NCBI GenBank assembly: GCA_017436645.1
Contig: JAFSCR010000025.1
Span: 1 to 64,000 of the forward strand
Reading direction: 5' to 3'
Source of the DNA: Clostridia bacterium
GTDB taxonomy: Bacteria > Bacillota > Clostridia > UMGS1883 > UMGS1540
Length of the DNA: 64,000 nucleotides
Shown: piece after piece, positions 1,717 through 62,679 of the stretch
Position numbering within the stretch: position 1 is the stretch's first letter
How the letters are laid out: every line of letters starts with the position of its first letter
Notes under the pieces: generated by a model
Database searches by the model: none
Seen by the model: the letters and a program-made list of their open reading frames with translations, nothing else
Told to the model about the DNA's origin: nothing
Made by a program: the position numbers and the translations under genes

Positions 1717-1725
1717 GGTGAAAAA

Positions 1726-2901: not shown

Positions 2902-2907
2902 TGAGAT

Positions 2908-4038: not shown

Positions 4039-4099
4039 AGGCGAGAAGCGCTTTTTTAGAAATCAAAATACGTGACAAACAAAAAGGATGAAATTATCA

Positions 4100-5227: not shown

Positions 5228-5247
5228 AAGAAAAAGGGAGAGCCTTT

Positions 5248-6393: not shown

Positions 6394-6404
6394 GGAGAAA
6401 AATT

Positions 6405-7478
6405 ATGATTTATATCACAACACATCACAGGACCAAAAATTTTGGGGCCTGTCTCCAATCTTATGCACTGCAGAAAACGCTAGATTCCATGGGCTATGAC
6501 AGCCGCTTGATTTTGCTTCGGGATGAAAGAGACAAAAAGCCTCCAAAGGCACTGAAGAAAAGAGTGCGCCATTATTTTCTAAAGCTGTACAGATTTTTTC
6601 ATAGAAGAACCATTTTAAAAGGTGAAGAAGCCTTTAACGAGTTCTTTTTGAAATATCATAAAACAACCTCGCCGTATGAAAACTTTGCGACGCTTCAGAA
6701 AAATCCGCCGAAAGGGGAAGTATACCTTTCGGGAAGCGACCAGGTATTTAATCCCACAGATGTTAAGCCTTTGTTTTTCCTTCAGTTTGGGGATAAAAAT
6801 ACGAAAAGAATTTCCTATGCAGGAAGTGTTTCTGTGCAGAATGTGCCGGAAAATGCAAAGGAGATTTTTCGCAGATATCTTTCCGCTTTTGATCGGTTAT
6901 CCATTCGGGAAAGTGAATCTCTGCCGCTTGTAAATGCCTACTATGATAAAAACGTGGAAGTCCACGTGGATCCGTCTTATCTCCTTGCCAAGGAAGAATG
7001 GGAGAAGCTTAGTGCGGAAAGCAGAAGGACCCCTTTAAAAAAACCGTATATTTTGGTCTATATCCTTTATAGGCCTCTATGGCTTAATGCCTATTTAAAA
7101 AAGCTTTATAAAGAAACAGGATATGAAATTGTGACGGTGCAGTATGATACATACCGTCGCATTTATGGCACAAAAACGGTACGCGATGCAGGACCTTTGG
7201 AATTTTTGAAACTGATTCGGGATGCAGAAATGGTAATATCCAGTTCCTATCACGGCTGTGTGTTTTCTTCGATTTTCAAAAAACCATTTTATGCCGTTGT
7301 TAATCCCGCCTCGCCTGCAAGAATACACTCCATGTTGCAACTTTTTCACTTGACGGACCGTGTGCTTTCGGCAGAAACCAAGCCGGCATTTGAAATAGAT
7401 TATACATATTTTGAAGAGGTCTTGCCAAAAGAAATTGAAAAATCAAAACGGTATTTAAAAGAAGCGATAGAAGGATAG
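6405..7478 (+). CDS. Polysaccharide pyruvyl transferase family protein
   Basis: GT-B-like transferase of 357 residues (PF04230 type) that would add a pyruvate ketal from phosphoenolpyruvate to a sugar of the repeat unit, giving the polymer acidic charge. Visible family marks are NFGACLQSYALQ at the N-terminus, SGSDQVFNP near 110, ISYAGSVS near 136, RESES near 170, HVDPSYLL near 187 and SSYHGCVFSSIF near 282. Only 4 nt separate it from an FrhB-type iron-sulfur protein, a pairing common in Firmicutes polysaccharide loci. Some members of this family transfer other groups, so pyruvylation is likely but not proven. Confidence 0.87.
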   Translation: MIYITTHHRTKNFGACLQSYALQKTLDSMGYDSRLILLRDERDKKPPKALKKRVRHYFLKLYRFFHRRTILKGEEAFNEFFLKYHKTTSPYENFATLQKNPPKGEVYLSGSDQVFNPTDVKPLFFLQFGDKNTKRISYAGSVSVQNVPENAKEIFRRYLSAFDRLSIRESESLPLVNAYYDKNVEVHVDPSYLLAKEEWEKLSAESRRTPLKKPYILVYILYRPLWLNAYLKKLYKETGYEIVTVQYDTYRRIYGTKTVRDAGPLEFLKLIRDAEMVISSSYHGCVFSSIFKKPFYAVVNPASPARIHSMLQLFHLTDRVLSAETKPAFEIDYTYFEEVLPKEIEKSKRYLKEAIEG

Positions 7479-7482
7479 TTTT

Positions 7483-8619
7483 ATGTATATTGAAGAAGTA
7501 GGAAAAGCCTGCACGGGATGCATGGCGTGCAAAAGTGCCTGCCGCACAGATGCCATCAGGATGATTCCCGATGAAGAAGGGTTCCCGTACCCGAAGGTTT
7601 TAGCTGATAAATGCAAGGATTGTGGTCTGTGTACCCGGGTTTGCCCCATGCTAAATACCGAAGAGCGGCAAATGCTGAAAAAATTATTCTGCGGCAGGGC
7701 AAAAGATAAAGAAACCGTTCGGAAAAGCTCTTCCGGCGGTGTTTTCACAGCGCTTGCAGAGAAAGTTTTAGCGAAGGGCGGCGTAGTATTTGGCGCTGCA
7801 TACGAGAAAGACCCCTGGTCTGTTTCTTATAAGAGCACCGAAGAAGTATCCCTTGATGCGCTTCGTCGAAGTAAGTATGTGGAAGCCCATGTGGGAGACA
7901 GCTTCCACAAAGTAAAGGTGGCGCTGGAAGCAGGGAAACAGGTGCTGTTTGTCGGCACGCCCTGCCACGTCACGGGGCTGAAGCTGTTTTTAACTAAAGA
8001 CTACCCGAATCTTCTTACGGTGGATTTCATTTGCGGCGGTGGTGCTTCCCCCAGATATTTTCAGGAGCATCTTGCAACCTTGGAGAAAAAGTACGGCGGA
8101 AAAGTAACAGACGTGAATTTTCGCCCAAAGCTTTACGGATGGAAGGAATATGCTTTAAAAATAGATTTTGATAACAAAAAAACGTATAAGGCGTATGCCT
8201 ATTTGGACACATATTTCCGTGGTTTTTTGCACGAAGGGACCATTAAACGAGAAACGTGCTTTTCGTGCCGATTCCGAAAGAACCATGCGGCAGACATCAT
8301 CCTGGGGGATTTCTGGGGACACGGTGCGGCAGGCATAAAGACGGATAACGAAGGACTTTCCTTGCTCATTACCAACTCGGAAAAGGGTGAGGTGGCACTT
8401 TTGGAAATTGCGCCTTTTATGGAACTTTGCGAAATTGCCCCAAAAGATGTGGCGTATGCGTTTGAACCGTATAAAAAAGCGCAAGAAAAAATCGAAAAAA
8501 AGAAGGCCTTTTCAGAAGCATACAAAAAATGGGGCTTTGAAAAAGCTGCAAAGAAGTTATATATGAAAAAATGTATGATATTTAAACTGAAAAAACGGAT
8601 AAAGGGCTTATTAAAATGA
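7483..8619 (+). CDS. FrhB/FdhB-type 4Fe-4S protein (coenzyme F420 hydrogenase beta-subunit family)
   Basis: 378-residue protein with an N-terminal double 4Fe-4S ferredoxin domain (Cys10, 13, 16, 20 and Cys44, 47, 50, 54) followed by FrhB N- and C-terminal domains (SSSGGVFTALAE near 76, VGTPCHVTGL near 154, DFICGGG near 180). The family name comes from methanogen F420 enzymes, but in bacteria such proteins sit beside pyruvyl transferases in polysaccharide operons, as here. A redox or pyruvyl-linked role at the membrane is inferred; the reaction is not known. The stop overlaps the start of the flippase gene by 4 bp, implying coupled translation. Confidence 0.87.
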   Translation: MYIEEVGKACTGCMACKSACRTDAIRMIPDEEGFPYPKVLADKCKDCGLCTRVCPMLNTEERQMLKKLFCGRAKDKETVRKSSSGGVFTALAEKVLAKGGVVFGAAYEKDPWSVSYKSTEEVSLDALRRSKYVEAHVGDSFHKVKVALEAGKQVLFVGTPCHVTGLKLFLTKDYPNLLTVDFICGGGASPRYFQEHLATLEKKYGGKVTDVNFRPKLYGWKEYALKIDFDNKKTYKAYAYLDTYFRGFLHEGTIKRETCFSCRFRKNHAADIILGDFWGHGAAGIKTDNEGLSLLITNSEKGEVALLEIAPFMELCEIAPKDVAYAFEPYKKAQEKIEKKKAFSEAYKKWGFEKAAKKLYMKKCMIFKLKKRIKGLLK

Positions 8620-10130
8620 AAAATCAAATTAAATCCGGCGCTGTCATTTCTTATTTTAATCTTGTTCTGAATATGTGCATAAACATATTCTTTACGCCGT
8701 TTTTGATTCGTTCCTTAGGAGATGCAGAGTACGGGGTTTACCGCGTTATTCAGTCTTTTGCCGGCCCTCTGGCGATTATGACGCTGGGCATGGCAACGTT
8801 GGTGACGAGAAATATCGTATATTATGACACAAGGCGGCAACAAAAAGAGAAAGAAAATTTTCTCGCCATGGGTATTGTTATATCTTTGGCAATGGCGGCG
8901 GTTACGCTTCTCGTTGGAGCAGGTATGTATGCGGCTGCCGATAAAATGTTTCAATCTTCGCTCACGCCGGCGGAAGTCGTAACAGCGAAAAAACTGATTC
9001 TTTTCTTTGTAGGTAATATGGCACTGACCGTTGTGAACGATTTTTTTGCAGGCATGGTGCGGGGGCACGAGAAATTTGCCGTGGCAAACGGAATCAGGAC
9101 GTTGCGCCTTGTTTTGCGTGTAATTACTTTGGTCGTTATACTTCGGCTCGGATTTAAATCCGTAGCCATTGTAGCCACAGACCTGGCCCTTACCGCATTA
9201 GTTCTTCTATTCAATGTTTTTTACGGCATGGGTCGGCTCGGGGAAAAAATAAAATTTCATTACTGGGATAAAGTAATGTTCAAAAGCTCCATGCTGTTTT
9301 CTGCGGCGATTTTACTCCAGACCATCATCAATCAGGTGAATCAGAACTTAGACAGCGTAATTTTAGGCGTTATGACAGATTCCAAAACGGTGGCGCTTTA
9401 TTCTGTCGGGCTTGTGATTTATACAACGTATAACAGTGTTTCTAGCATAATTGCCGGGCTCTTTACCCCGGCGGCCACACGGCTTGTAGCAAATGAAGCA
9501 AGTGCGGAACAGCTTACGGATTTTGTTTCCCGCATCGGCAGATATCAGCTGATGCTGGTCGGTGCCGTTTTAAGCGGATTTATCCTCTTTGGAAAGGAAT
9601 TTATCCTGCATTGGCTGGGAGAAGGCTATCAGCCCGTTTACGCAGTTGTCCTCTGGCTCATCATTCCCACAACCATACCGCTTATCCAAAGTGCATATCA
9701 GGCAATACTCGATGCAAAGATGAAAAGAATGTCCCGCTCGGTGATTTTATCCGTAATGGCGGGGTTGAACGTAGCAATATCTATAGTGCTGATTCACTAT
9801 ATCGGATATATCGGGGCTGCTATTGGTACGGCAATTTCCATTCTTCTTGGTCACGGCTTAATTATGAATATCTATCTTTATAAAGTGATTAAACTCGACG
9901 TTATTAAAATGTTTAAAGATATTTTACGGGGCCTTTTTCCCTCGATTCTTCTCAGCATGGCACTGGGATGTCCTCTTGCAAAATTCTTGCCTAACACACT
10001 TCTGATGTTCGTTGTTAAAATCATTTTGTTTTTGATAATATACGGGCTGTCAGTATATTTCTTCGGCATGAACGGGACAGAAAAAGAAGCTGTCCAACAG
10101 ATTGCGAAAAAGTGCGGCTGCAAAAAGTAA
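8616..10130 (+). CDS. Polysaccharide flippase (Wzx-like, MOP superfamily)
   Basis: 504-residue membrane protein with about 12-14 hydrophobic helices, of the oligosaccharide flippase family that moves undecaprenyl-linked repeat units across the membrane. Typical features are the N-terminal GAVISYFNLVLNMCINIFF, the LIRSLGDAEYGVYR loop near 28, and the helix pair around NQVNQNLDSVILGVMTDS near 240-257. The ATG at 8616 overlaps the FrhB stop (ATGA). With the two EpsG copies this makes a complete Wzx/Wzy route. An initiating phosphoglycosyltransferase is not in the window and should lie upstream of position 1. Confidence 0.9.
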   Translation: MKNQIKSGAVISYFNLVLNMCINIFFTPFLIRSLGDAEYGVYRVIQSFAGPLAIMTLGMATLVTRNIVYYDTRRQQKEKENFLAMGIVISLAMAAVTLLVGAGMYAAADKMFQSSLTPAEVVTAKKLILFFVGNMALTVVNDFFAGMVRGHEKFAVANGIRTLRLVLRVITLVVILRLGFKSVAIVATDLALTALVLLFNVFYGMGRLGEKIKFHYWDKVMFKSSMLFSAAILLQTIINQVNQNLDSVILGVMTDSKTVALYSVGLVIYTTYNSVSSIIAGLFTPAATRLVANEASAEQLTDFVSRIGRYQLMLVGAVLSGFILFGKEFILHWLGEGYQPVYAVVLWLIIPTTIPLIQSAYQAILDAKMKRMSRSVILSVMAGLNVAISIVLIHYIGYIGAAIGTAISILLGHGLIMNIYLYKVIKLDVIKMFKDILRGLFPSILLSMALGCPLAKFLPNTLLMFVVKIILFLIIYGLSVYFFGMNGTEKEAVQQIAKKCGCKK

Positions 10131-32276: not shown

Positions 32277-33920
32277 CTATTTGCCGCCGTTTTTCAAAAT
32301 TTCCATAGTCTTATTATCGCTGTTTGCAAAAAACTCGGAAAGCGTTTCATATTCTTTGTAAAGCTTTTCATAAATTCCGGTGTTTTCGGGATTGGGCTTA
32401 TAGGAAACCGCTTTGATTTTCTTCATTTTTTCTGCAGCTTTCGTAAGAGAGGCATAGCCGTTTTGGTTGACAGCACCAAGCACTGCACTGCCAAAGGCAC
32501 AAGCCTGCCCTGTTCCCGATAAAAAGATTTCCTTGCCTAAAACGTCGGCATAAATCTGCATTAAGAGTTCATCCTTTTCTGCAATGCCGCCTGCGGCAAA
32601 AATCTTATTGATTTTGATGCCGCTTTTTTCGTAAATGTCCACAATCCTTTTTGTGCCATATGCGGTGGACTCAATTAAAGCACGGTAAATCTCTTCGGGG
32701 GAAGTCGTAATGTTCAGCCCTAAAATCAGACCGCTTAAAGTACCGCTTACGTAAGGGGTGCGGTTGCCGTTAAACCAGTCCAGCGCCAAAATTCCGTTGG
32801 AACCCGGCGGAAGTAAAGCTGCTTTTTTGCGAAGATATTTGTGAATGTTTATGCCCTCGGCGCCTGCCTTTTCCGTATAGGAAGCCGGCACGCAGTTTTT
32901 AATAAACCAGTCAAAGCTGTCACCCACGCACGCCTGCCCTGCTTCAAAAGCATAAAGGTTCTCTGCAATGCCGTCTTTCACAAAGCCGGAAATGCCCGGA
33001 ATATATGATTTTTTATCCCCTAAAAGAATGTGACAGGTGGAGGTGCCGATGATCATTAAAAGTTCACCCGAATGGGTAATGCCAAGGGCAGGAAGTGCCG
33101 CGTGTGCATCAATAAATGCAGGGTGGACCGGCGTTCCCGCTTTCAGACCTGTTTTTTCTTCTGCTTCTTTGGTAATATATCCTGCAATCTGCGAAAGCTT
33201 TATTACATCTTCCGAAATCTTTGTGCCGACGATGTTCTCAAAATCAGGGTGAAGGGCTTTTAAAAATGCTTTATCGGGGTATCCGTTTTCCTCGTCCCAT
33301 ATCGCCTTAAACCCTGTTGTGCAAATAGAATGCGTCTCTTTTCCTGTCAGCATCCACACAATCCAGTCGCCTGCTTCTATAAATCGGAACGTTTCGCTGT
33401 AAACTTCGGGGGCTTCTTTTCGTATTTCCAAAACTTTGGGGAAAAGCCATTCGCTTGAAATGGTGCCGCCGTATCGCCGGAGCCATTGGGCGTCCGTCTT
33501 TTTTGCAAGCGCGTTAATTTCGTCCGCTTCTTTTTGTGCGGCGTGATGCTTCCAAAGCTTTACATAGGCGTGGGGCGTGTTTTTAAATTTTTCCGTAAAG
33601 CAAAGGGGCGTACCGTCCTCTAAAACGGGAAGAACGGTGGAGGCAGTAAAGTCAACACCTACCCCCGTAATATCATAAGGGTCAACGCTTGCTTTTTCGA
33701 TGCAGTCTTTGATAACGAAAAACATACAGTCCAGATAGTCCCCGGGATGCTGCAAGGCATAATCTGAAGGCAGGGCGGAGCCATCTATAAATGTTTCCGT
33801 CATAACGCCGTGGGGGTAATCACATACGGATGTTGCCACTTCTTCGCCGGAATGAATATCAACGAGAATGGCGCGTGCCGAAAGCGTTCCAAAATCAATA
33901 CCTAAAGAATATTTACGCAT
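32277..33920 (-). CDS. Ribulokinase-like FGGY kinase (AraB type)
   Basis: 547-residue sugar kinase. N-terminal phosphate loop GIDFGTLSARAILVD, substrate side GVDFTASTVLPV near 88, the ribulokinase hallmark HAYVKLWKHHAAQ near 117, and the C-terminal AAGGIAEKDELLMQIYADVLG near 445. Length fits AraB. It would phosphorylate L-ribulose or a related ketose with ATP. No araA or araD is present; the partner aldolase is of HpcH type, so the true substrate may be a different ketose or keto acid. Gaps: 44 nt after the mlrC-like gene, 10 nt before BNR copy 2. Confidence 0.85.
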   Translation of the reverse strand: MRKYSLGIDFGTLSARAILVDIHSGEEVATSVCDYPHGVMTETFIDGSALPSDYALQHPGDYLDCMFFVIKDCIEKASVDPYDITGVGVDFTASTVLPVLEDGTPLCFTEKFKNTPHAYVKLWKHHAAQKEADEINALAKKTDAQWLRRYGGTISSEWLFPKVLEIRKEAPEVYSETFRFIEAGDWIVWMLTGKETHSICTTGFKAIWDEENGYPDKAFLKALHPDFENIVGTKISEDVIKLSQIAGYITKEAEEKTGLKAGTPVHPAFIDAHAALPALGITHSGELLMIIGTSTCHILLGDKKSYIPGISGFVKDGIAENLYAFEAGQACVGDSFDWFIKNCVPASYTEKAGAEGINIHKYLRKKAALLPPGSNGILALDWFNGNRTPYVSGTLSGLILGLNITTSPEEIYRALIESTAYGTKRIVDIYEKSGIKINKIFAAGGIAEKDELLMQIYADVLGKEIFLSGTGQACAFGSAVLGAVNQNGYASLTKAAEKMKKIKAVSYKPNPENTGIYEKLYKEYETLSEFFANSDNKTMEILKNGGK

Positions 33921-33964
33921 ATTTTCACCTTCTTATAAAGTCTCTGAAATTTGCAAAAAGTCTT

Positions 33965-35407
33965 TTATTTCCAGTTTTGAAAGGGGTACCCGTCGGGCAC
34001 GGGATTTGCAATGCCGGGAAGGGCAACCGCTTCCAGTCTGTCCGTAATTTCGCCGTAGGCGGCACGGTAATGCACGGCAGATTTCGTTATAATAATTTTA
34101 TGTTCCTCAGGGCGTATGCCGTGAGAATAAAATACTTCCGTATCCCACGGCTGACGGGGAATGGATGCGATAAGCACCGTATTCTCTTCGATTTCCACAA
34201 CTGCCGTTTTGCCGTGTTTGATGATTTCTCCCGGGGCAATTTTGGCTTTCGCCACATATTTGCCGTCCGAAATCATTTTTACGTATGCGGTAACGTCCAA
34301 TGGTCCGCCTGAAAGGAGGGGGTCACTTTTGCCGCCAAGGGCAAGGCGCACCGTACTTCCCACACCTGCCGCTTCGCATTTCGTAACGCTTTCCGGGTCA
34401 ACAATGGTGGCAAGGATGGTATTGCGGATGCCTCTTTTCAGTATTTCTCTTAAAATATGGGTGGAATCGCTGAAGGCACCGGCACCGGGATTGTCGGAAG
34501 CGTCAGCAATGACGAGGGGCTTATGGGAAGAAAGTGCTTTTTCCAAAACTTCGTCTAAAGTGGGGAACGTTCTTTTTAATGTGGGGGTTCTTTCGGAGAT
34601 AAAGATAAAAAGCTCGTCCGCCATTTCCTCGGCAAGGGGGCGGTCCCCATCCGTCACGATGGTAATGCCCATGCCCATCTCCTCTATATCTGCGGCAAAA
34701 AAGCCGTGGCAAAAGCCGGGGAAAAGAACGCCCTTCGTCTTTTTCATTTCTGCCGTTTTATCATAAATACATTTCATTTCCGGCTCTTCACTCGGAAAAA
34801 GGGGCAATAAATAAGGGACAAGGCGAAAAGCCATTTGGGGATGTATTTTTCCGTCCAAAGTGTCCTGCATCATATGGGCGGCACGAAGCCCCGTTTTATA
34901 TGTATCCGTGTGGGGATAGCACTCGTAAGGAATAAGTGCGGTGGCATTTTCCGCCATTTTTTTCGTGGTGTTGGAATGGAGGTCAAGGGAGACGATAATG
35001 GGCACATCCGCACCCACAGCCGTGCGGATTTCTTCCAGTAAATCCCCTTCACCGTCGGGATGCCCCACCGCCACCATAGCACCGTGCAGGGCAAGGAGAA
35101 CGCCGTCTACGGGCGCATTTTTTTCGATTGCGGAAAGGATTTCACGAAGGGCATAGTCAAAAACATCGCCCGTAACCGGCCCCGTGGGGTTTGCAACGAA
35201 ATCCACCGTGGGGAGAAGGACAATATCGTCCCGGGTTTCAAAAACATCTATAAAGGCACCGATTTCACTGCCGACGCCCTTCTGGTTTTTCAAAATGCAG
35301 TCGCCCACGTCAAAACAAAGGTTCCGAAACATGGTTTCGTCCCCCGGTTTGGAGCAAAAGGAATTGGTTTCGTGCTGGAATCTGCCGATAATAACCTTTT
35401 TCTGCAT
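33965..35407 (-). CDS. M81 family metallopeptidase-like protein (MlrC-like)
   Basis: 480-residue protein of the MlrC (microcystinase C) family, DUF1485 N-domain plus MlrC C-domain. Putative zinc ligands: His12 in RFQHETNSF, Asp/His in LSLDLHSN near 158-163 and YPHTDT near 182. ADASDNPGAGAFSD near 310 is a conserved family loop. I start at the ATG at 35407, 7 nt behind GGAGG. Despite the family name, most bacterial members are in sugar or amide-catabolic operons and their substrates are unknown; an amidohydrolase on a modified sugar is a guess. First gene of a four-gene operon. Confidence 0.83.
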   Translation of the reverse strand: MQKKVIIGRFQHETNSFCSKPGDETMFRNLCFDVGDCILKNQKGVGSEIGAFIDVFETRDDIVLLPTVDFVANPTGPVTGDVFDYALREILSAIEKNAPVDGVLLALHGAMVAVGHPDGEGDLLEEIRTAVGADVPIIVSLDLHSNTTKKMAENATALIPYECYPHTDTYKTGLRAAHMMQDTLDGKIHPQMAFRLVPYLLPLFPSEEPEMKCIYDKTAEMKKTKGVLFPGFCHGFFAADIEEMGMGITIVTDGDRPLAEEMADELFIFISERTPTLKRTFPTLDEVLEKALSSHKPLVIADASDNPGAGAFSDSTHILREILKRGIRNTILATIVDPESVTKCEAAGVGSTVRLALGGKSDPLLSGGPLDVTAYVKMISDGKYVAKAKIAPGEIIKHGKTAVVEIEENTVLIASIPRQPWDTEVFYSHGIRPEEHKIIITKSAVHYRAAYGEITDRLEAVALPGIANPVPDGYPFQNWK

Positions 35408-35437
35408 CAGATTGCCTCCATTTTTCATATTATCTTC

Positions 35438-35502
35438 ATTATAGCACACTTTTTAGAAATATAAATAGTCTTTTTGGCAAAAAACATAGAAAAAGCGGCA
35501 AA
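35438..35502 (-). promoter_or_regulatory. AraC-type operator and promoter of the mlrC-araB-BNR-aldolase operon
   Basis: On the - strand the -10 is TATAAT (35438-35443) with a poor -35 (ATTTAT). On the + strand CTTTTTGGCAAAAAACAT lies at 35470-35487, 26 nt beyond the -10. Half-sites GGCAAA at 35476 and 35497 are 21 bp apart. It matches 29488-29520 in sequence (17 of 18 in the core), orientation and spacing. Confidence 0.65.
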
Positions 35503-52787: not shown

Positions 52788-54071
52788 TTATTTTGCTTCA
52801 TATCGGATAAGTCTCCCTGCTTCCGATGCATTTTTATATTTTCCTGCGGCGATGAGTCCGTAAAGCGCTGCACCGAAGGAAGCTTCCTCAAGATGGGCAG
52901 GAACAGAAAGCGGATGCCCGAAAATTTCTTCCAGCTCTTTTTTAAGTGCCTCGTTTTTGCGGATGCCGTTGCCGCTTCCCACAATGCCGCGAAGTGGAAT
53001 TCCCATTTCCTTTTGCATACGGAAAAGCTCTTCCGCCATACCCCGAAGAATGCCTTTCGTGAAGGAAGCAGGGGTAAAGTTTTCCGTGCGGATGCCCGAA
53101 ATGCTCCCTGAAAGGGACGGGTTTTGCCGCGTGCCTGCAAAACGGGTGTCAACGGAAAGGGGCGAAACAGCCGTATTTGCCATTTCATCCATAAAAGCAT
53201 AGATTTCTCCGTCATCCGGTGATGCAAAAGGCGAAATAACAGATTTAAAAAAGTCCTTCAGAAGGGAATAGGCCCTGCCGCCGCAAAGTGCCGCACCGCA
53301 GGCGAGGTACTTGCCTTCAAAATACGGTCTCGTTTCCACATTTTCTGTTTTCAAAATTTTTTCCGTCACCACAGAAATCTGACTGCCCGTGCCGATGTTT
53401 AAAAGGGCAGTTCCGGTTTCCCGAAGGGAAGAAAAAACGCTTGCCTGATTATCCCCGATAGGAAGAGCGACGGGAACGCCCCGATAGGTGCCTATAATTT
53501 GATACCCTTCCTCGGGCACGATTCCCACATCATAGGAAAAGCTGTGGGTTAAAAGGTCAAAAAAGCCAAGACTTGCCGCATTTGTAATATGCATTCGAGG
53601 GGCGGCGAGACCGCAAAGGTGCATGGCAAAATAGTCCATAATGGTGCAAAAATATGCAGCCTCTTTCGGTCTTATGCCGTTTTCTCTGTTGTAAAAATCC
53701 GTAACGCACCCGTATCCTGCAGGGGTGGAAAGGTGGATAGCATAAGTAGTGTCTTTATAGGGAAGGTCGCCGCGTCCGTCCTGCCAGGTATAAAGGGGGC
53801 TTATGCTCTGCCCTTTCTTATCCACATATACAATGCCGTGCATCTGCCCCGTTATGCCGATGACAGCGACTTCGGGCGTAATAAAAGCATCTAAAATCCC
53901 TTTTGCCACGTCCAGAATTTTCTCAACGGACTGGATTTTCTCAAAAGATGCGGAAGGGGGCAGAAAAGCATTACTTTGGACGGTTTCCCTTCTTAAAACC
54001 TCGCCCGTTTCCGCATTAAGAAGTATGCCGCAGATGCTCGTGGTGCCAATATCAATTCCAATGGCGTGCAT
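52788..54071 (-). CDS. FGGY carbohydrate kinase, sedoheptulokinase-like
   Basis: 427-residue sugar kinase, shorter than xylulokinase or AraB. N-terminal GIDIGTTSICGILL, substrate loop ITGQMHGIVYVD near 73 and TWQDGR near 94, C-terminal ATP loop GSGNGIRKNEALKKELEEI near 360. The GQMHG pattern and length fit the sedoheptulokinase branch. It begins inside the stop of the SGNH hydrolase gene (TAATG) and ends the cluster. It would phosphorylate the monosaccharide released by the upstream hydrolases; the sugar is not known. Confidence 0.82.
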   Translation of the reverse strand: MHAIGIDIGTTSICGILLNAETGEVLRRETVQSNAFLPPSASFEKIQSVEKILDVAKGILDAFITPEVAVIGITGQMHGIVYVDKKGQSISPLYTWQDGRGDLPYKDTTYAIHLSTPAGYGCVTDFYNRENGIRPKEAAYFCTIMDYFAMHLCGLAAPRMHITNAASLGFFDLLTHSFSYDVGIVPEEGYQIIGTYRGVPVALPIGDNQASVFSSLRETGTALLNIGTGSQISVVTEKILKTENVETRPYFEGKYLACGAALCGGRAYSLLKDFFKSVISPFASPDDGEIYAFMDEMANTAVSPLSVDTRFAGTRQNPSLSGSISGIRTENFTPASFTKGILRGMAEELFRMQKEMGIPLRGIVGSGNGIRKNEALKKELEEIFGHPLSVPAHLEEASFGAALYGLIAAGKYKNASEAGRLIRYEAK

Positions 54072-54739
54072 TATAAAACCTCCAGAAAAGCTTTCAGCCT
54101 TTGGGCGATGATTTTATGTCCTTCGTCGCTTGGGTGCACGCCGTCCGGCATAAAAGCTTCGCGGACTTCTTCAATTTCAGGCTGAATAGGGCAAGTGGCA
54201 AAAAGGTCTAAAACGGGAAGACCGTAAAATTCTGCCACCTCTCTGATGGCGGTGACATAGTCCTTTAAAGTACCGAAGCCGTAAACTTTTTCCTGCCCGT
54301 TGTTTTTCGTTTCGTTTGTGCGGTGAAGTGGCGTCATAATCACAATGGTTTTTCCGAGATATTTTCGGATAAGCCCCGAGAAAAGATAGTGGCAGGCACC
54401 GTAAAAGGTGTCGGGCGTTCTATCACAAAAAGCGCCCATAGGTGCATCGCCGTGGCCGAAATCGTTGGTGCCGCCGAACACCACTACAACGTCCGCATCG
54501 TCATCCATTTTATCATATCGCTCAGAAAAAGAGTTTACATCCACGAAAGTATCTTTAGGGCGAAGGGGCGTTCCTTTCTGTAGCGCAAACCGTGTGCCGC
54601 CAATGCCGTAATTTCGGATTTCTGCAAGATTTGCCTCCCGCTTTAAAATGGCGCAGTAGGTCGCTTCTTTACTGGAAGCTTTTACGCCTTCCGTAATGCT
54701 GTCGCCAAGAAAATTTATTTTTAAGCCTTCAAGTTTCAT
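54071..54739 (-). CDS. SGNH/GDSL hydrolase (carbohydrate esterase-like)
   Basis: 222-residue esterase without signal peptide. Block I LGDSITEG with nucleophile Ser14, oxyanion Gly in IGGTRF near 47, Asn in FGGTNDFGHGD near 91, and catalytic Asp/His in DGVHPSDEGH near 204. Likely deacylates an acylated sugar in the cytosol. It is translationally coupled to the kinase (shared base TAATG). A stem-loop in the preceding spacer (54752-54788) may influence relative expression. Confidence 0.87.
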   Translation of the reverse strand: MKLEGLKINFLGDSITEGVKASSKEATYCAILKREANLAEIRNYGIGGTRFALQKGTPLRPKDTFVDVNSFSERYDKMDDDADVVVVFGGTNDFGHGDAPMGAFCDRTPDTFYGACHYLFSGLIRKYLGKTIVIMTPLHRTNETKNNGQEKVYGFGTLKDYVTAIREVAEFYGLPVLDLFATCPIQPEIEEVREAFMPDGVHPSDEGHKIIAQRLKAFLEVL

Positions 54740-54751
54740 TTTTCTCTTCCT

Positions 54752-54788
54752 TTCTTAAGCCTTATGGGGTTCGCCTCCCCTTGGCTTA
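54752..54788 (-). promoter_or_regulatory. Intercistronic stem-loop
   Basis: On the - strand TTAAGCC and GGCTTAA enclose GGGG/CCCC; the first arm contains the stop codon of the GH172-like gene. No T-run follows, so it is not a standard terminator; RNA processing or attenuation is possible. Confidence 0.5.
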
Positions 54789-55847
54789 ACCCAGACAAAC
54801 TTCCGCCGCACTCGGCAAAGGTGCAAGGGGCGAGGTGGGAAGGGTCTGGTACCAATATGCCACCGTCACAAAATCATCGTGGCGGTGGAGGTTACCGTGG
54901 GGCGAAAAACGAATATCCTGCAGCGTCATCCGAAATTCCTTTTCAAAGCGGATGGGGTCCGGCAGGTGCCAGCGGTAAAGCATAAAGCGGGGCATCATTG
55001 TTTTTCCCGAAAAAGGTTTGCCCGCTATGGGGCCGAACATAGCATACATCCCCATATAAGGGGTGGAATAGGTCTGATACTTGCCGAGAAGAGGGTCGCA
55101 GTCCCCGAAATTATAAGAGCCACCGAAATAATCTTCAAGTCCCGTATAATTTATAGAGGGGTATTTCTCACCGTCAATGTACATTTTCGGTTCCCCCTCC
55201 GTCCAGCAGCCGCCGCAGCCTCCGGGGGTCACGCCCATGGAAAGACCGACGAAATGCCCTTTCCCTTTTATGCCGTCAACGGCAACGTACGCACGCAAAG
55301 GGTCCGTGGGGAGTGCCTGCCGGTAGGATGCACAGAAATAAAGGGAATCTTCGGGCACTTCTCTATATTCCCCCGTAATCATATAGTGGGTTTTGATGGC
55401 TTCCGAAGGATGGCGGTTTTCGAGGGTGATTCTGCAGTGCTTTTTAAAGGGCATCTGCCAGAAGCAGTTAAGACCGCGGCAAGGGGTAACGGAAACCATA
55501 GCGGAGGAAAGGGTGGGAAAATTCCCGTCCGTATCCACCACATTTTCGTAAAAAGGATAGGCGAAGAAAGCGGAAAGAGGAGATTCCACGCTGGGGTTTT
55601 TCTGCCCGTCCCAGTAAATTCTTAAAATAAAGTCCCAGGGCGCAAAGCCGCCGAACCACATACTTTCAATCACACCGGGTCCGTCCGTGTCTACAAGGGT
55701 CAGCGTTTCCCCCGGTTGTACCCAAAGAAGGCATTGCCGTTTTTCAAGATGATCGCCCTGACTTCCGCCTCCCTTTTCCCCTTTCGGGTTTTCGGGACAA
55801 AAGGCAAAGCTTTTTGCATTTATGCTTCGGGTTAAATCAGTAAACAT
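54786..55847 (-). CDS. DUF2961 protein (glycoside hydrolase family 172-like)
   Basis: 353-residue protein of the DUF2961 family, whose characterised members (GH172) cleave fructofuranosides or arabinofuranosides. Family features seen: GPGVIESMWFGG near 57, LRIYWDGQKNPSVESPL near 75, GLNCFWQMPF near 124 and GLEDYFGGSYNFGD near 236. No signal peptide, so it acts on imported oligosaccharides. Start ATG at 55847 follows GGAGG by 8 nt. It has its own promoter (55878-55906) inside the gap behind the glycyl radical enzyme gene. Exact linkage unknown. Confidence 0.85.
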   Translation of the reverse strand: MFTDLTRSINAKSFAFCPENPKGEKGGGSQGDHLEKRQCLLWVQPGETLTLVDTDGPGVIESMWFGGFAPWDFILRIYWDGQKNPSVESPLSAFFAYPFYENVVDTDGNFPTLSSAMVSVTPCRGLNCFWQMPFKKHCRITLENRHPSEAIKTHYMITGEYREVPEDSLYFCASYRQALPTDPLRAYVAVDGIKGKGHFVGLSMGVTPGGCGGCWTEGEPKMYIDGEKYPSINYTGLEDYFGGSYNFGDCDPLLGKYQTYSTPYMGMYAMFGPIAGKPFSGKTMMPRFMLYRWHLPDPIRFEKEFRMTLQDIRFSPHGNLHRHDDFVTVAYWYQTLPTSPLAPLPSAAEVCLG

Positions 55848-55914: not shown

Positions 55915-58227
55915 CTACATTTTCGTTGAGTTTAAATCGAGCCTTGTAATAATGTCCTTCTGAATGGCGGGAGAAAGGTCTAAAAAGTTTACGAACGTGC
56001 CGTGAATCCGCATAATGTAAACGCCGCTGGGGGCATATTTTTTCGGGTTTTCCAAAACTTTGCGAAGCATGTCGGGCGTGGTGACGTTTACATAGAGGTA
56101 AAACGGCGAAACACCTTCCGAAAGCGGATTAAAGAAGAGGGGCAAAATCACATTTTCATAAAACTCTGTGCCTTTTTCCTCGTTTGTTTCACCACGGAAA
56201 TATTTCGGGTCAATGCCGAGATGGGAAGCATAGCCGCCGCGGAATTTTTCAAAAGGCAGCTGCATATTGGAAAGCATACGGAAGCCGAGGCCCCCGCTCG
56301 CTTCGCCATATAAGGGGTCAACGCCATACCCCAGCATATCACGGCTACGCCGTCCGTCAGGCGTGGCGCCCACCCAGTACCCGTAGGTAAGGTGGGTGGA
56401 AGGAGACGAAAAGTCAGGGCGGAAAGGATTGCCGAGATAGTTTTTCCGTTTTGAAAGCATATCGGAAACTCTTTCTGCGATTTCTGCCGCTTCCCTGTCA
56501 ACTTCTTCGATGTTGTTGCCAAATTTCGGGCAGGCAAGAAGGAAAGTGCGTAATTCCTCATAGCCTTCAAAATTATTTTTGAGGGCAGAAAGGAGCATTT
56601 CCGCCCCGTCCGGATATTTTTCAAGAAATTTATCAATGGCGATAAAGGAATCGGCTAAAACGGAAAGCCCGTGGATAAGACAGCCGCTTCCGTTATACTT
56701 TGTGCCCTGCACCTTTGTGTCCCGCATATCGGCGCCGTATTCCATGCCGCCCATAAAAACGCTTAAAAACGGCACGCGAAGATGGGAAAGGGCGCAGGAT
56801 GCACCGTTTGCCGCCCGGCACATTTCGTCCATAACTTTTTCGAGGGTTTTATAGAAAGCTGTGCGAATCCGGGAAAGGTCATACGGCTCGGTCTCCATAA
56901 GCTTTTCGCCGGAAATGGCGGATGTACCGCCAAAGAGTACCATTTCCAGAACTTTCGGAAGACTGAGCCAGCTGTTTGTGGTGTTGCCGTTGTCTTTTCC
57001 CATAATCAGGGGTTCCTGACAGCCTGCCACGGCATAGTCGGCAAGGTCCGCAGAATCAATGCCGTCATTTTCCAAAATGGCGAAAACCGAATCGTCATTA
57101 AAAAGGGACGGCGTCAGAACACCGGGGGAGAAGAAAAATCTGCCCATTTCTTCGTAAAGCTTTTGAGGCGTATTTTTGTGCAGCTTCACAGACAGAATAG
57201 GCTGGGGCAGGTTCATATCAAAGTAGGCATCGAGAATGGCGTAGGACATGGTGTTTGTAAGGTCCCTGCCCTCCGCATCCCGTCCGCTGATTAAAACGTT
57301 TTGAGAAATTGCCCAGCTTCTGTCCCCAACGTTATAGAAAACAAGGAAATGCTTAAAAAGGGCGGCGGCTTCCTCTCTCGAAAGTGCGCCGCGGAAAGGC
57401 TCAAAAATTCTGTCCGCACCTCCGATGGAAAAGGCGTAAGGGTTCGGCGCCTGTTCAAGGCACATCACCTGCCAGAGGAGAAGGTAAAGCTGCATTGCCT
57501 CGTGCAGGTTTTTTGCACCCCCTGAAAGGATGGAAGAAAGAGAGGCTTCCATTTTGGAAATCCGCACCGTATTTTCCGCTGTCTTTTGTGCCTTAAGAAT
57601 GGAAAGGTAGCGGCGAATAAGAATTTTCACGCCGTCCAAAGCGATGGCGGCGGCTTCATAAAAGGCACCGTCCTTCTTTTGGGCGTCGGCAATTAAGGCA
57701 TCTATGCCGTAATGTAGGGCAAAGCGGAAATCGGGAATTACATGCCCCGTTACCTGCTCAATGAAAAAAACAACTTCCCCTGTGTAGTTTTCCGCCTTTT
57801 TATATGTTTCGTTCAAAGCGGCAACCATGGGAGATTTTGCCGTGTGGGTGCGAACGCGTCCAATTCTTTCTTCCGTAAATTCTTCGTTTGGTGCAATGTC
57901 TCTATAAATGGCAAGGGGGTCGCAGTACCCCGAAAAGCCTTCCACCGTAAAGGAAGGGTTTATAAGGGCGTAGCTTTTTGCAAAGGCATCCCGCTGTGTG
58001 CCGACGAAGATGGCATTTTCGCTGACGGAGAGGGAAATGGTGCGAAGTACCTCACATAAAAGATGTGCCTTTTTGACCTCGGGATCAAACTTTGCATATT
58101 TTTCCTCCGAAAGCATTTCCGTTTCTTTGGCGAGAAACCATCCGTCAAGCCTTTTGATTTCCCGTTCTTCTCTGTAAAGTGCTTTTGCCATTTCCGTAAT
58201 TTTTTCGGGGCTTAAAATCTGATTCAT
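55915..58227 (-). CDS. Glycyl radical enzyme, unclassified lyase/dehydratase type
   Basis: 770-residue pyruvate formate-lyase-family enzyme. Cys403-Gln-Glu405 in VAGCQEPLIMG is the thiyl cysteine with the glutamate that marks dehydratases and C-N/C-C lyases rather than PFL (Cys-Cys). The C-terminal glycyl site reads MRIHGTFVNF with Gly743, where most members have RVxGY; the following IQKDIITR tail is standard. ATPDGRRSRD near 621 and EASGGLGF near 642 are family blocks. It is oxygen-sensitive and needs the activase encoded 13 nt upstream. Neighbours point to a sugar-derived substrate. I cannot match it to a characterised class. Confidence 0.88.
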   Translation of the reverse strand: MNQILSPEKITEMAKALYREEREIKRLDGWFLAKETEMLSEEKYAKFDPEVKKAHLLCEVLRTISLSVSENAIFVGTQRDAFAKSYALINPSFTVEGFSGYCDPLAIYRDIAPNEEFTEERIGRVRTHTAKSPMVAALNETYKKAENYTGEVVFFIEQVTGHVIPDFRFALHYGIDALIADAQKKDGAFYEAAAIALDGVKILIRRYLSILKAQKTAENTVRISKMEASLSSILSGGAKNLHEAMQLYLLLWQVMCLEQAPNPYAFSIGGADRIFEPFRGALSREEAAALFKHFLVFYNVGDRSWAISQNVLISGRDAEGRDLTNTMSYAILDAYFDMNLPQPILSVKLHKNTPQKLYEEMGRFFFSPGVLTPSLFNDDSVFAILENDGIDSADLADYAVAGCQEPLIMGKDNGNTTNSWLSLPKVLEMVLFGGTSAISGEKLMETEPYDLSRIRTAFYKTLEKVMDEMCRAANGASCALSHLRVPFLSVFMGGMEYGADMRDTKVQGTKYNGSGCLIHGLSVLADSFIAIDKFLEKYPDGAEMLLSALKNNFEGYEELRTFLLACPKFGNNIEEVDREAAEIAERVSDMLSKRKNYLGNPFRPDFSSPSTHLTYGYWVGATPDGRRSRDMLGYGVDPLYGEASGGLGFRMLSNMQLPFEKFRGGYASHLGIDPKYFRGETNEEKGTEFYENVILPLFFNPLSEGVSPFYLYVNVTTPDMLRKVLENPKKYAPSGVYIMRIHGTFVNFLDLSPAIQKDIITRLDLNSTKM

Positions 58228-58240
58228 ATTTTTCCTCCGT

Positions 58241-58942
58241 TTATGTAGTGATTACTGAAAGACCGCGACTTTTAAATGCTTCTTTAAAAGCCGCCACCGT
58301 TTCCTTTGGCATAAATCCATCTTGAACAAGGTAAGGCGTTTTCCATTTTTCCTTGCCGTATTCGTGATAGGGCAAAAATTCAAAACACGTGTTTTTTGTG
58401 TCGTACTTTGCAAAGAAATCTGCAAAAGCCTCGGGGAAATTGCCGTTAAATTCCCGAATGAGGGGGATGCGGATGTGTTGCCTTTGTCCCGAATTGCAGT
58501 TTTTCGCAAAGTTCTGCAAGGTCACTTCGTTTCCGAGACCCGTATATGCTTTATGCACCGCAGGGTCATAATGCTTTATATCCATAATGAGATAATCGAT
58601 AAAAGGGAGAAGATCCCCGAGCTTTTCCGAAGAGCCGTTTGTTTCAAGGCAGGTGTGAATGCCCTCTTTTTTCAGAAGCTTTAAAAGAGACAAAAGTTCA
58701 TCAAATTGAAGGGTTGCCTCACCGCCCGTAAACGTAACGCCGCCGCCCGAAAAAAAGAGCTTCCGACTTCTTATGCATTCTGAAAGGAGTGTTTCGACTG
58801 TATATTCTTCCCCTGCCTCCCCCGAAAACCCTTCGGGATTCGAGCACCAGATGCAGCGCATATTGCAGCCTGCAAGGTGGTAAACGAGGCGGTTTCCCGG
58901 TCCGTCCTGAGAAAAGTTAAATCCTTTTTGAAAAATCCGCAT
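58241..58942 (-). CDS. Glycyl radical enzyme activase (radical SAM)
   Basis: 233-residue activase. Radical SAM cluster Cys26-x3-Cys30-x2-Cys33 in GCNMRCIWC, SAM-binding GGEATLQ near 88, and ETNGSSEK near 119. It has no inserted ferredoxin-like cluster domain, so it is of the compact PflA layout, whereas most dehydratase-type activases are longer. It installs the Gly743 radical on the partner enzyme. First gene of the cluster; its promoter has a TATAAT (58970-58975, - strand) but no good -35, consistent with activation by the divergent AraC. Confidence 0.9.
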   Translation of the reverse strand: MRIFQKGFNFSQDGPGNRLVYHLAGCNMRCIWCSNPEGFSGEAGEEYTVETLLSECIRSRKLFFSGGGVTFTGGEATLQFDELLSLLKLLKKEGIHTCLETNGSSEKLGDLLPFIDYLIMDIKHYDPAVHKAYTGLGNEVTLQNFAKNCNSGQRQHIRIPLIREFNGNFPEAFADFFAKYDTKNTCFEFLPYHEYGKEKWKTPYLVQDGFMPKETVAAFKEAFKSRGLSVITT

Positions 58943-59058: not shown

Positions 59059-59859
59059 ATGTACGCTTTTTTCTCTCCGGACGTCCGCCATCATATCACG
59101 GAAGCAAACGTAAATTACTATAAAAATCCTTTTATGCATCCTTCCCGCACCATGGCGGAGCATGATTTTATTTATATTTTGCAGGGGGAATGGAAATTCG
59201 GGCAAAACGGCGTTTGCCTTCCCGCAAAAAAGGATTCCCTTCTGATTCTGAGCGCTATGGAGCATCACTATGGCGTGGAGGAATGTACAAAGGGAACAAA
59301 AACCATGTATTTCCACGTAAGCCGCGAGATGGGGGACCGCTTTTCGGATTTAAAAGAGAAATGCGGGGAAGAAATTATGGCGGCAACGCTTCTGGATGCC
59401 GGCGGCATTCCCAAAATCAAAAAGTATTTTTCAAATATAGTTTCCGCAAAGCTTGCAGGAAAGGAAAGAGAAGCGGACGTGTGGTTTGACCTTCTGCTTT
59501 GCACCGTCGCGGAAGCGATGGAAAGCGGCGAAAGATCCGATATTGCCGAACAGCTGAAGCACATTATTCATAAAAACCCCGAAATTTTTTATTCCAATGA
59601 AAAGCTTGCAAAGCTGGTGAAGGTTTCCGTAAAAACGGCGGAGAATAAGTTTAAAGCTGCCACGGGGCTTACCCTTCACCAGTATCTTCTGCAGTTTAAA
59701 ATGGAGGAAGCCGTTTCCTATTTTAAAATTTTCCCCGAGCTTTCCGTAAAGGAAGTTGCCCATAACCTCGGGTTTTATGATGAATACCATTTTGCGAAGC
59801 AGTTTAAAAGACTCATGGGCAAATCTCCCGGCAAATATAAAAAAGAACTTTCCGAATAA
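59059..59859 (+). CDS. AraC family transcriptional regulator (cupin + HTH)
   Basis: 266-residue regulator. N-terminal cupin (about 10-95: HDFIYILQGEWKFGQNG), C-terminal HTH pair (about 165-265: LVKVSVKTAENKFKAATGLTLHQYL and VAHNLGFYDEYHFAKQFKRLMGKSPGKY). GAAAGGAAGG precedes the ATG. It is divergent from the activase/glycyl radical enzyme genes and most likely activates them in response to a sugar. It is not close in sequence to the AraC at 29540 outside the HTH. Confidence 0.9.
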   Translation: MYAFFSPDVRHHITEANVNYYKNPFMHPSRTMAEHDFIYILQGEWKFGQNGVCLPAKKDSLLILSAMEHHYGVEECTKGTKTMYFHVSREMGDRFSDLKEKCGEEIMAATLLDAGGIPKIKKYFSNIVSAKLAGKEREADVWFDLLLCTVAEAMESGERSDIAEQLKHIIHKNPEIFYSNEKLAKLVKVSVKTAENKFKAATGLTLHQYLLQFKMEEAVSYFKIFPELSVKEVAHNLGFYDEYHFAKQFKRLMGKSPGKYKKELSE

Positions 59860-59892: not shown

Positions 59893-59925
59893 CATATACT
59901 GAAAGAAAAAAGCGAGGTGTATATT

Positions 59926-61218
59926 TTGGAAATTCATGTTGTCAGACGGGGCGATACCGTCTCCGCCATTGCAAGGCGTTATGGCGTGTCGGCCAGCCGC
60001 ATTCTTTCCGATAACGGCCTTCCCGCCCGTCAGCCTTTAGTGGTGGGGCAGGCGCTTCTCATTTTGTTTCCCGAGGAAATTTATACCGTGCGGCAGGGGG
60101 ACTCTCTTTTCTCCATTGCGAGAAGATTCGGCACTACGGCCGATGCGCTCCGCCGAAATAATCCGGAGCTGATTTTAAATCCCACCCTTTTCCCCGGCCA
60201 GCAGATTACCATTTCCTTTTCCGATGCAAAGCGCCGCACCATAACCGTAGGCGGTTATGCATACCCCAACATAAACCGCGCCACTCTTTCTCTTACGGTG
60301 CCGTTTCTCTCCCGCCTTACCCCCTTCGGCTACGGCTTTACGGAAAACGGTAATCTCATTTCCATAAATGATGCCCGCCTTATCGAAGCGGCTCTTTCGG
60401 AAAATGCGGCGCCCTATATGCTCCTTTCCTCCATTACCGAGGACGGCAACTTCAGCGGCGAAAGAGCGTCCGCTCTCTTCCGAAGCGAGAGTCTCCAAAA
60501 CAGGGTGCTTGCATCCATTGTTGAAACCATGCAAAGAAAGGGATATCAGGGCCTCGATATTGACTTTGAATATATTCCGCCCGAGGACAGCGACGGCTTT
60601 TTGAGGTTTTTGGAAAATGCCACGGAAAAACTTCACGCTGCAGGGTACCCTACCCATTGCGATCTTGCGCCGAAAACCTACGCCGACCAGCCGGGCCTTC
60701 TTTATGAAGCGCACCGCTACGGGGAAATCGGTAATATTGTGGACACCGTTCTTCTCATGACGTACGAATGGGGTTATTCCTACGGGCCGCCCCTTGCGGT
60801 GGCACCGCTTTCTGAGGTGCGAAGGGTGGTTCAATATGCGGTGACGGAAATTCCGAGAAACAAAATCCTCATGGGCATCCCCAATTACGGGTACGACTGG
60901 ACCCTTCCCTACGAAAAGGGCAACCGTGCCCGAAACATCGGCAATGAAGAGGCGGTGCGGATAGCCGCCGAGCGTGGTGCGGAAATTCTGTTTGACGAAA
61001 AATCCGCCTCCCCCTATTTTTATTATCGGGATAATACCGGACGGCGTCACGTAGTCTGGTTTGAAGATGTTCGCTCCATTTCGGCAAAATACGACCTTTT
61101 GGACGAATTCGGTCTCCTCGGCACCGCCTACTGGACCATTATGCGCCCCTTCCGCCAGAACTGGGCATTCGTAAACGCCCTTTATAACATAAGGAAGGGA
61201 AGACCTACAATCGGTTAA
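59926..61218 (+). CDS. LysM-GH18 peptidoglycan hydrolase (YaaH/SleL-like)
   Basis: 430-residue spore-type hydrolase. Two LysM domains (about 3-47 HVVRRGDTVSAIARRYGV and 51-98 YTVRQGDSLFSIARRFGT) bind peptidoglycan; residues 105-425 form a GH18 barrel with the catalytic GLDIDFEYIP (DxDxE) near 205. Related enzymes act as cortical-fragment N-acetylglucosaminidases in germinating spores. The start is TTG at 59926, 6 nt behind GAGGTG. There is no signal peptide, which is normal for spore-coat-targeted members. Monocistronic. Confidence 0.9.
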   Translation: MEIHVVRRGDTVSAIARRYGVSASRILSDNGLPARQPLVVGQALLILFPEEIYTVRQGDSLFSIARRFGTTADALRRNNPELILNPTLFPGQQITISFSDAKRRTITVGGYAYPNINRATLSLTVPFLSRLTPFGYGFTENGNLISINDARLIEAALSENAAPYMLLSSITEDGNFSGERASALFRSESLQNRVLASIVETMQRKGYQGLDIDFEYIPPEDSDGFLRFLENATEKLHAAGYPTHCDLAPKTYADQPGLLYEAHRYGEIGNIVDTVLLMTYEWGYSYGPPLAVAPLSEVRRVVQYAVTEIPRNKILMGIPNYGYDWTLPYEKGNRARNIGNEEAVRIAAERGAEILFDEKSASPYFYYRDNTGRRHVVWFEDVRSISAKYDLLDEFGLLGTAYWTIMRPFRQNWAFVNALYNIRKGRPTIG

Positions 61219-61284: not shown

Positions 61285-62679
61285 ATGAAAGCTTTCATGG
61301 ATAAAGATTTTATGCTGCAGTCTGACACTGCAAAAACCCTGTATCATGACTATGCTGCAAAAATGCCCATTATCGATTACCATTGCCATCTCATTCCCAG
61401 AGAAATCTGTGAGAACAGACAGTTTAAAAACATCACCGAAATCTGGCTCGGCGGTGACCATTATAAATGGCGTGTTATGCGTTCCAACGGCATTGACGAA
61501 GCATATATGACGGGTGATAAGTCGGACTTTGAAAAATTTGAAGCTTTTGCCAAAAGCTTAAAGTATGCCATCGGCAACCCCATGTACCATTGGACACATC
61601 TGGAGCTTCAGCGCTATTTCGGCATTGAAGATATTTTAAATGAAAAGAGCGCTCGTGATATTTACGACAGATGTAATAAACTGATTGCAGGCGGCGGCTT
61701 TTCTGCTATGGACTTTATCGAAAAGTCCAACGTGGAAACCATCTGCACCACCGATGACCCCGTAGACTCGCTCGAATACCATATCGAACTGAAAAAGCAG
61801 GATAAAGTAAAAGTTCTGCCCACATTCCGCCCCGATAAGGCTGTAAACTGTGAGCAGGAAACCTTCGTTCCTTATATAAAGGAACTGGAAAAGGTTGCAG
61901 GCACATCCATTTCCGATATTGACGGTCTCAGCGCCGCCCTTTTGGACAGAATCAATTTCTTCCACTCCGTCGGCTGCCGTGTATCCGACCACGCTCTCGC
62001 CGGCGTTCCCTTCGGCAAAACAAACAGGGAAATGGCAAACGCTTCCTTTAAAAAGGCCATGGCAGGGGATGCACTTTCCGAAGACGAAATCAATGCCTAT
62101 AAAACTTACATGCTTCTTTTCTTTGCGGCAGAATACCATAAGCGTGACTGGGCCATGCAGCTCCACATCGGTGCCCTTCGCAATAACAATACAAGTATGT
62201 ATAAAAAGCTCGGCCCCGATACAGGCTTTGACTCGATTGACGATCAGAATATCGCCGCCCCCCTCTCATCACTCCTTAATGCCTGCAATGAAAGTGGCAG
62301 ACTCCCCAAAACAATTCTTTATACCTTAAACCCCAAGGATAATTACGTTCTCGCCACCATGCTCGGTAACTTCCAGGGTACGGAAGCACCCTCCAAAATT
62401 CAGTTCGGCTCCGGCTGGTGGTTCAATGACCAGCGTGACGGCATGGAGGGCCAGATGCGTGCCCTTGCAAACCTCGGTCTCCTCGGCAGATTCGTCGGCA
62501 TGCTCACAGACTCAAGAAGCTTCCTTTCCTACACACGCCACGAATATTTCCGCCGCATTATGTGTAACCTCATCGGCACTTGGGTGGAAAATGGGGAATA
62601 TCCTGCCGATTTTGAGGCTCTGGGCGAAATCGTCCAAGGCATCAGCTACAAGAACGCTAAAAATTACTTTAATTTCTAA
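61285..62679 (+). CDS. uxaC: Glucuronate (uronate) isomerase
   Basis: 464-residue amidohydrolase-fold isomerase converting D-glucuronate to D-fructuronate and D-galacturonate to D-tagaturonate. Visible marks: IIDYHCHLIPREI near 30, ICTTDDP near 152, LPTFRPDKA near 175, QLHIGALRNNN near 292 and GSGWWFNDQRDGMEGQM near 374. GAGG lies before the ATG. It stands alone with its own promoter and terminator. Its product is the substrate of the UxuB-like SDR at 17550; UxuA and KDG kinase/aldolase are not in the window. Confidence 0.95.
   Translation: MKAFMDKDFMLQSDTAKTLYHDYAAKMPIIDYHCHLIPREICENRQFKNITEIWLGGDHYKWRVMRSNGIDEAYMTGDKSDFEKFEAFAKSLKYAIGNPMYHWTHLELQRYFGIEDILNEKSARDIYDRCNKLIAGGGFSAMDFIEKSNVETICTTDDPVDSLEYHIELKKQDKVKVLPTFRPDKAVNCEQETFVPYIKELEKVAGTSISDIDGLSAALLDRINFFHSVGCRVSDHALAGVPFGKTNREMANASFKKAMAGDALSEDEINAYKTYMLLFFAAEYHKRDWAMQLHIGALRNNNTSMYKKLGPDTGFDSIDDQNIAAPLSSLLNACNESGRLPKTILYTLNPKDNYVLATMLGNFQGTEAPSKIQFGSGWWFNDQRDGMEGQMRALANLGLLGRFVGMLTDSRSFLSYTRHEYFRRIMCNLIGTWVENGEYPADFEALGEIVQGISYKNAKNYFNF

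Follow-up and report, generated by a model that had tools for sequence, protein, structure and literature searches.

Among the anaerobic bond cleavages of gut microbes, some of the hardest are carried out by glycyl radical enzymes (GREs). Many abundant GREs are without known function, according to a review (PMC11574389), and among the described systems PflD and YbiW open an anhydrohexitol-phosphate ring and yield 1-deoxyfructose-6-phosphate (reviewed in PMC12441222), with PDB entries entitled as PflD with 1,5-anhydromannitol-6-phosphate (8id0) and YbiW with 1,5-anhydroglucitol-6-phosphate (8id7). The PDB sequences nearest to the GRE described here were those of glycerol dehydratase and PflD, about a quarter identical. 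By the tests made, this GRE belongs to a new, deeply separated clade, outside PflD/YbiW, glycerol dehydratase, CutC, HypD, HpsG and PFL, whose conserved partners are an activase, an FGGY-family kinase and often a cupin resembling mannose-6-phosphate isomerase (PMI).

The locus and its glycyl radical enzyme

The GRE is encoded in a stretch of 64,000 nucleotides from a Clostridia bacterium, which was analysed as a whole and is referred to here as the window (Table 1). The activase gene lies upstream of the GRE gene in the transcript, separated by a gap of 13 bp, and the genes for the GH172 glycosidase, the SGNH esterase and the kinase follow downstream. An earlier note, made from the DNA letters, had described a Cys403-x-Glu405 pair, an unusual RIHGT glycyl motif, a compact PflA-like activase, and neighbouring GH172/DUF2961, SGNH and FGGY genes under a divergent AraC. 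All these elements were recovered, the neighbours by Pfam matches, and, in agreement with the same note, the window genes inspected near the GRE included neither aldehyde/alcohol dehydrogenase nor microcompartment genes. The solved structures nearest to the GH172 protein were an exo-alpha-D-arabinofuranosidase (8ic8) and a difructose dianhydride I synthase/hydrolase (7v1v). The only other GRE in the window genome was a canonical PFL, which has a separate activase.

Table 1. Features of the GRE cluster, with positions in the window
Feature	Position	Strand	Evidence
Glycyl radical enzyme (GRE), 770 aa	55915..58227	-	PF02901 PFL-like, E 4.5e-94 over residues 18-616
Catalytic Cys403-Gln404-Glu405 codons (GCQE motif, 402-405)	57013..57021	-	Invariant in 35 relatives; alignment with GCxE of PflD, YbiW and HypD
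Glycyl loop R740-I-H-G743-T744	55996..56010	-	Invariant in the clade; alignment with RVAGY of other GREs
GRE-activating enzyme, radical SAM, 233 aa, no ferredoxin-like insert	58241..58942	-	PF04055, PF13353; Cys pattern CNMRCIWC
FGGY-family kinase, probably a fructose-type ketose kinase	52788..54071	-	PF00370/PF02782
GH172/DUF2961 glycosidase, window-specific neighbour	54786..55847	-	PF11175, E 3e-71
SGNH/GDSL esterase, window-specific neighbour	54071..54739	-	PF13472, E 1.7e-23
Divergent AraC-family regulator	59059..59859	+	PF12833, E 6e-17

Elsewhere in the window, a LysM-GH18 gene (59917-61218) lies between the GRE operon and a glucuronate isomerase gene (UxaC, 61285-62679, opposite strand), and no UxaC-GRE link was seen in relatives. 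An exopolysaccharide-type cluster with a family 2 glycosyltransferase, an EpsG polymerase and a flippase occupies positions 784-10130 of the + strand, and a further FGGY kinase adjoins an MlrC/M81 family protein (32277-35449), close to genes of the Ldh_2 and class V aminotransferase families.

The AlphaFold2 model of the GRE (mean pLDDT 87.4, pTM 0.91) found its best PDB match by Foldseek in glycerol dehydratase 1r8w (TM 0.84), followed by propanediol dehydratase and PflD. This fold match, the PF02901 domain, the invariant Cys403 and Gly743 and a radical SAM activase of its own are traits of the PFL-like superfamily. The glycerol dehydratase pocket includes H164, H281, S282 and D447. In the alignment, H164 is kept as H162 of the window GRE, while the other three positions align with Tyr, Ala and Thr, respectively; Thr at the D447-equivalent position is common to YbiW and HypD too.

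Membership of any named GRE class was ruled out by the NCBIfam cut-offs and the tree. The best NCBIfam match of the window GRE, the PFL2/glycerol dehydratase subfamily TIGR01774, gave 210.2 bits against a cut-off of 678.2, the comparison GREs reaching 388-807 bits on the same profile. All the GRE equivalogs (PflD-type, HypD, CutC, HpsG, HpfG, PFL, IAD and HPAD) gave 40-167 bits against cut-offs of 994-1150; the PflD-type equivalog NF007437 scored 167.2 (cut-off 1109), the PFL equivalog TIGR01255 80.3 (cut-off 994.2), and CutC, HypD, HpsG/HpfG, IAD and HPAD 40-157 (cut-offs 1000-1150). In a maximum-likelihood tree (quick mode, LG+G4, rooted on PFL, HPAD and HpfG sequences being absent), the 14 sampled members formed one clade (SH-aLRT 100, stem 1.45), which lay outside all other eliminase/decarboxylase GREs included (SH-aLRT 96 for these). 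Since long branches meet in this tree, as the tool warned, the branching order with PFL is unsure, but the separateness of the clade is not. With every NCBIfam GRE family score below its cut-off and the clade outside the represented classes, the enzyme is unclassified, as the earlier note had proposed, and a literature search found no paper describing the clade.

The clade also carries distinctive motifs. The GCQE motif and the RIHGTFVNFLDLS stretch were invariant in the alignment of 35 members, and neither RIHGT nor GCQE occurred in any of the 34 other GREs of the comparison, all of which showed R[VI]xG followed by Tyr or Phe as the residue after the glycyl Gly (34/34).

Distribution, activase and conserved partners

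A scan of 84,980 genomes, one per species, returned 48 GRE relatives, each with its locus, at 58-77% identity, the next level lying at 27% or below. The GRE occurred in 13 of the 391 genomes of the class sample and, in the order sample, in the window's own genome only; since no further member was found at E 1e-120 in 398 genomes of the phylum, the family is rare outside the class sampled. Its hosts are mostly uncultured Clostridia from the herbivore hindgut, together with Blautia schinkii, Muricomes intestini, Ohessyouella blattaphilus and one Propionivibrio bin. Isolates bearing the gene are B. schinkii DSM 10518, M. intestini DSM 29489 and O. blattaphilus PAL227.

The activase adjoins the GRE in 45 of 47 loci and falls below the TIGR02494 and PFLA cut-offs. 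Whereas most GRE activases possess a ferredoxin-like Cys-rich insert, the window activase, whose CX3CX2C motif reads CNMRCIWC, is devoid of it after this motif, as are those of most relatives; one Cys cluster is retained in the activases of Blautia-type members and of loci L011-L013. Additional radical enzymes were observed near a few loci. A second activase-like radical SAM protein, 277 aa long and carrying a Cys cluster of the ferredoxin type, is encoded directly after the kinase in L025 (5972-6802) and L026 (14655-15485), where no second GRE was seen next to it. In L042 (14876-18405), the genes directly behind the GRE-kinase-PMI operon encode a second, different GRE, whose 874-aa frame has an AraC-like HTH stretch at the N-terminus, and its activase, which is of the ferredoxin type; this second GRE forms a long branch of its own in the tree.

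Neighbours were counted over the 48 loci, the denominators being the loci with enough flank. An FGGY kinase was present in 38 of 44 when both FGGY types were counted (35 with the window type) and was not seen nearby in the remaining 6. A PMI-like cupin accompanied the GRE in 30 of 43 loci and the AraC regulator of the window's cluster in 10 of 43, whereas glycosidase neighbours were mixed (GH38, GH92, GH2, GH32, GH116 and GH172): GH38 alpha-mannosidases occurred in 7 of 42 loci and GH32 in 3 of 42, GH92 adjoins in L027 and GH2 in L025/L026. TAL/FSA proteins lay near the GRE in 4 of 43 loci. FSA-type aldolases (Q59/Y131 signature) are found in three Blautia-type loci (L049, L050 and L054), and transaldolase-type ones (E/F) in L004 and L019. 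The Ohessyouella neighbourhood (L043) comprises a zinc alcohol dehydrogenase, an SDR, a xylose-isomerase-like barrel protein and RpiB/LacAB. When the GRE loci were searched by BLAST with PtsA, FrwC and FrwB from E. coli, no PTS genes were detected, in keeping with a soluble kinase; nor did genes for amino-acid or aromatic pathways turn up repeatedly beside the GRE.

The PMI-like cupin keeps the metal-binding HP..E..H residues; in L023 (5488-6519) and homologues, nine extra residues (IQPE.WCGE type) immediately precede the catalytic Arg/Lys position, which is Arg in the Bacillus subtilis PMI. The housekeeping PMI is free of this insert, so the cupin is a dedicated variant. An essential role for PMI as a partner found no support, as type I PMI was not found in the window genome.

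The kinase is the partner most telling about the pathway. Its profile was found in 34 of the 391 class genomes, that is, in all 13 with the GRE and in 21 of the 378 without it. In the genomes without the GRE, the kinase gene neighbours either GH32 fructosidase genes (several each in L126 and L142, and in L132) or GH172 and SGNH genes (L136, L137, L139 and L140), whose products are 48-49% and 44-46% identical, respectively, to those of the window. As the kinase occurs with GH32 or GH172 in genomes lacking the GRE, and as GRE-linked and GRE-free kinases intermingle in the tree, its kind of substrate would not depend on the presence of the GRE and is probably fructose or a close analogue. From this gene context, we predict that it is probably a fructose-type kinase. 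Assignment to a known FGGY member was rejected, as no equivalog was reached and the solved matches, all of them distant, were gluconate, xylulose and glycerol kinases, with no close relative found among solved structures; it may resemble sedoheptulokinase.

The same comparison changes the weight of the window's glycosidases. Carbohydrate genes do surround the GRE in most loci, so this part of the sugar context put forward by the earlier note stands, but GH172 and SGNH accompany the GRE in the window only. The use of the glycosidases as evidence for the substrate did not survive, because the SGNH-GH172-kinase trio occurs without any GRE in another family of the class and hence is a separate module. 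GH172 and SGNH, found with the kinase alone in the genomes of that family (f46), were accordingly dropped as substrate clues. A pre-existing SGNH-GH172-kinase module joined to a GRE-activase pair explains the arrangement in the window.

Proposed function and alternatives

As far as sequence can tell, the protein has the fold of a GRE, a Cys-x-Glu pair and the conserved Gly, and its gene is accompanied by that of a partner activase and linked to that of a particular FGGY kinase. Our preferred reading, held tentatively and at somewhat less than an even chance, is that the GRE is an eliminase-type enzyme converting an unphosphorylated manno- or fructo-like sugar, or a cyclic polyol, into a ketose for the FGGY kinase. 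Following general GRE chemistry, the activase would form a glycyl radical at Gly743, from where the radical would move to Cys403; the resulting thiyl radical would abstract hydrogen from a hydroxyl-bearing carbon, Glu405 would take the hydroxyl proton, and the adjacent C-O bond, either to the ring oxygen or to a hydroxyl, would be cleaved. The nature of the substrate is suggested by the context: the kinase narrows the guess of the earlier note, a deoxy-sugar, sugar acid or polyol, towards a fructose-like ketose product, and the PMI-like cupin (30/43), GH38 (7/42) and GH92 in L027 point to manno-configured sugars. With the GRE presumably acting before the kinase, the ketose would be phosphorylated at a terminal carbon and its carbon would enter near fructose-6-phosphate. 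The most concrete candidate is the conversion of free 1,5-anhydromannitol or 1,5-anhydroglucitol into 1-deoxyfructose, i.e. the PflD/YbiW reaction before phosphorylation. This product is a plausible substrate for a fructose-type kinase, and FSA aldolase, where present, could split its phosphate. A bolder reading, which we rate as unlikely, is that this GRE with its RIHGT variant loop directly transforms a free hexose, or a hexose analogue, of the fructose/mannose node, for instance by radical ring-opening of mannose or 1,5-anhydromannitol to a ketose, and so provides an anaerobic way into glycolysis that had gone unrecognised.

There is no support for a universal FSA-based 1-deoxyfructose route, because no TAL/FSA aldolase family protein was found in the window genome (94% complete). 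Neither type I PMI nor the bacterial PGI/PMI domain was found there, so that 1-deoxyfructose-6-phosphate would have no known exit in this organism. A fructose product would need neither TAL/FSA nor PMI, which leads to the alternative of a radical aldose-ketose isomerase turning free D-mannose into D-fructose (C2-H abstraction, C1-O5 cleavage and hydrogen return), with the kinase producing fructose-6-phosphate. GRE and kinase would then suffice, in line with a window genome that has one GH92 alpha-mannosidase (G000:C6:17733-19127) and neither PMI nor TAL/FSA found, and with the mannosidases neighbouring the GRE in other loci. However, ordinary isomerases manage without a radical, an oxygen-sensitive enzyme would bring no obvious gain, the PMI-like cupin of 30 of the 43 loci would be redundant, and the reaction has no precedent, all of which makes it highly improbable.

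If the GRE acted after the kinase on a phosphorylated sugar, it would follow the precedent of YbiW and PflD, and the kinase gene is indeed adjacent. We consider this quite unlikely, given that the solved FGGY relatives use linear ketoses, gluconate or glycerol rather than cyclic anhydrohexitols, that the kinase also occurs without the GRE beside GH32 genes, and that GRE and PflD are less than 30% identical. The diol dehydratases, being the closest folds and best sequence matches, would instead suggest that the GRE dehydrates an acyclic polyol such as mannitol or arabinitol and thereby supplies the kinase with a 1-deoxyketose or a deoxyaldose, the glycosidases merely freeing co-occurring sugars. 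The dehydrogenases and isomerase-like proteins of L043 would suit such a pathway, but polyol dehydrogenases are missing from most loci and Tyr, Ala and Thr replace H281, S282 and D447 of the glycerol dehydratase pocket, which leaves a polyol substrate with a low probability. A substrate unrelated to the linked sugar genes, such as an amino acid, an amine or an aromatic compound, would be compatible with a pocket too diverged for prediction and with the variability of the glycosidases; it is very unlikely, since every GRE-positive genome of the class sample has the kinase, and pathway genes for amino acids or aromatics are not recurrent neighbours of the GRE.

Returning to the proposed eliminase acting ahead of the kinase, the recurrent link of the GRE to a fructose-type kinase, a PMI-like cupin and mannosidases yields a short, directly testable list of sugars. 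The clade is rare and coherent, lies outside all represented eliminase/decarboxylase clades and differs in its glycyl loop and its mostly stripped-down activase, and the GRE-kinase pairing in herbivore gut bacteria points to an unrecognised step of anaerobic sugar breakdown.

Comparison with known systems

Pyruvate formate-lyase shares the PFL-like fold, and the activase of the GRE is compact like PflA, but the window GRE has a C-x-E instead of a CC pair and reaches just 80 bits against 994. One further equivalog class has in common with it the Cys-x-Glu pair and a Thr 14 residues after the Cys, yet the window GRE scores 131 bits against 1100 and belongs to a separate clade. The B12-independent glycerol/1,2-propanediol dehydratases (1r8w, 5i2g and 9rco) are the best sequence and fold match (TM 0.84); they also possess Cys-x-Glu, and H162 of the GRE aligns with the His preceding the same conserved stretch. 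They differ in identity (23%), in the changed pocket positions and in that no dehydrogenase or microcompartment partners were seen for the GRE. With PflD and YbiW the GRE has in common the Cys-x-Glu of an eliminase and the carbohydrate context. In three Blautia-type loci an FSA-type aldolase lies beside the GRE, as fsaA lies near ybiW, and in the window genome none was found. Nevertheless, it is only 26% identical to PflD and 23% to YbiW, and its loci are distinguished by an FGGY kinase instead of PTS genes, the RIHGT loop and an activase mostly without the ferredoxin domain. By analogy, therefore, the GRE may work like PflD and YbiW, yet it is not a member of their class.
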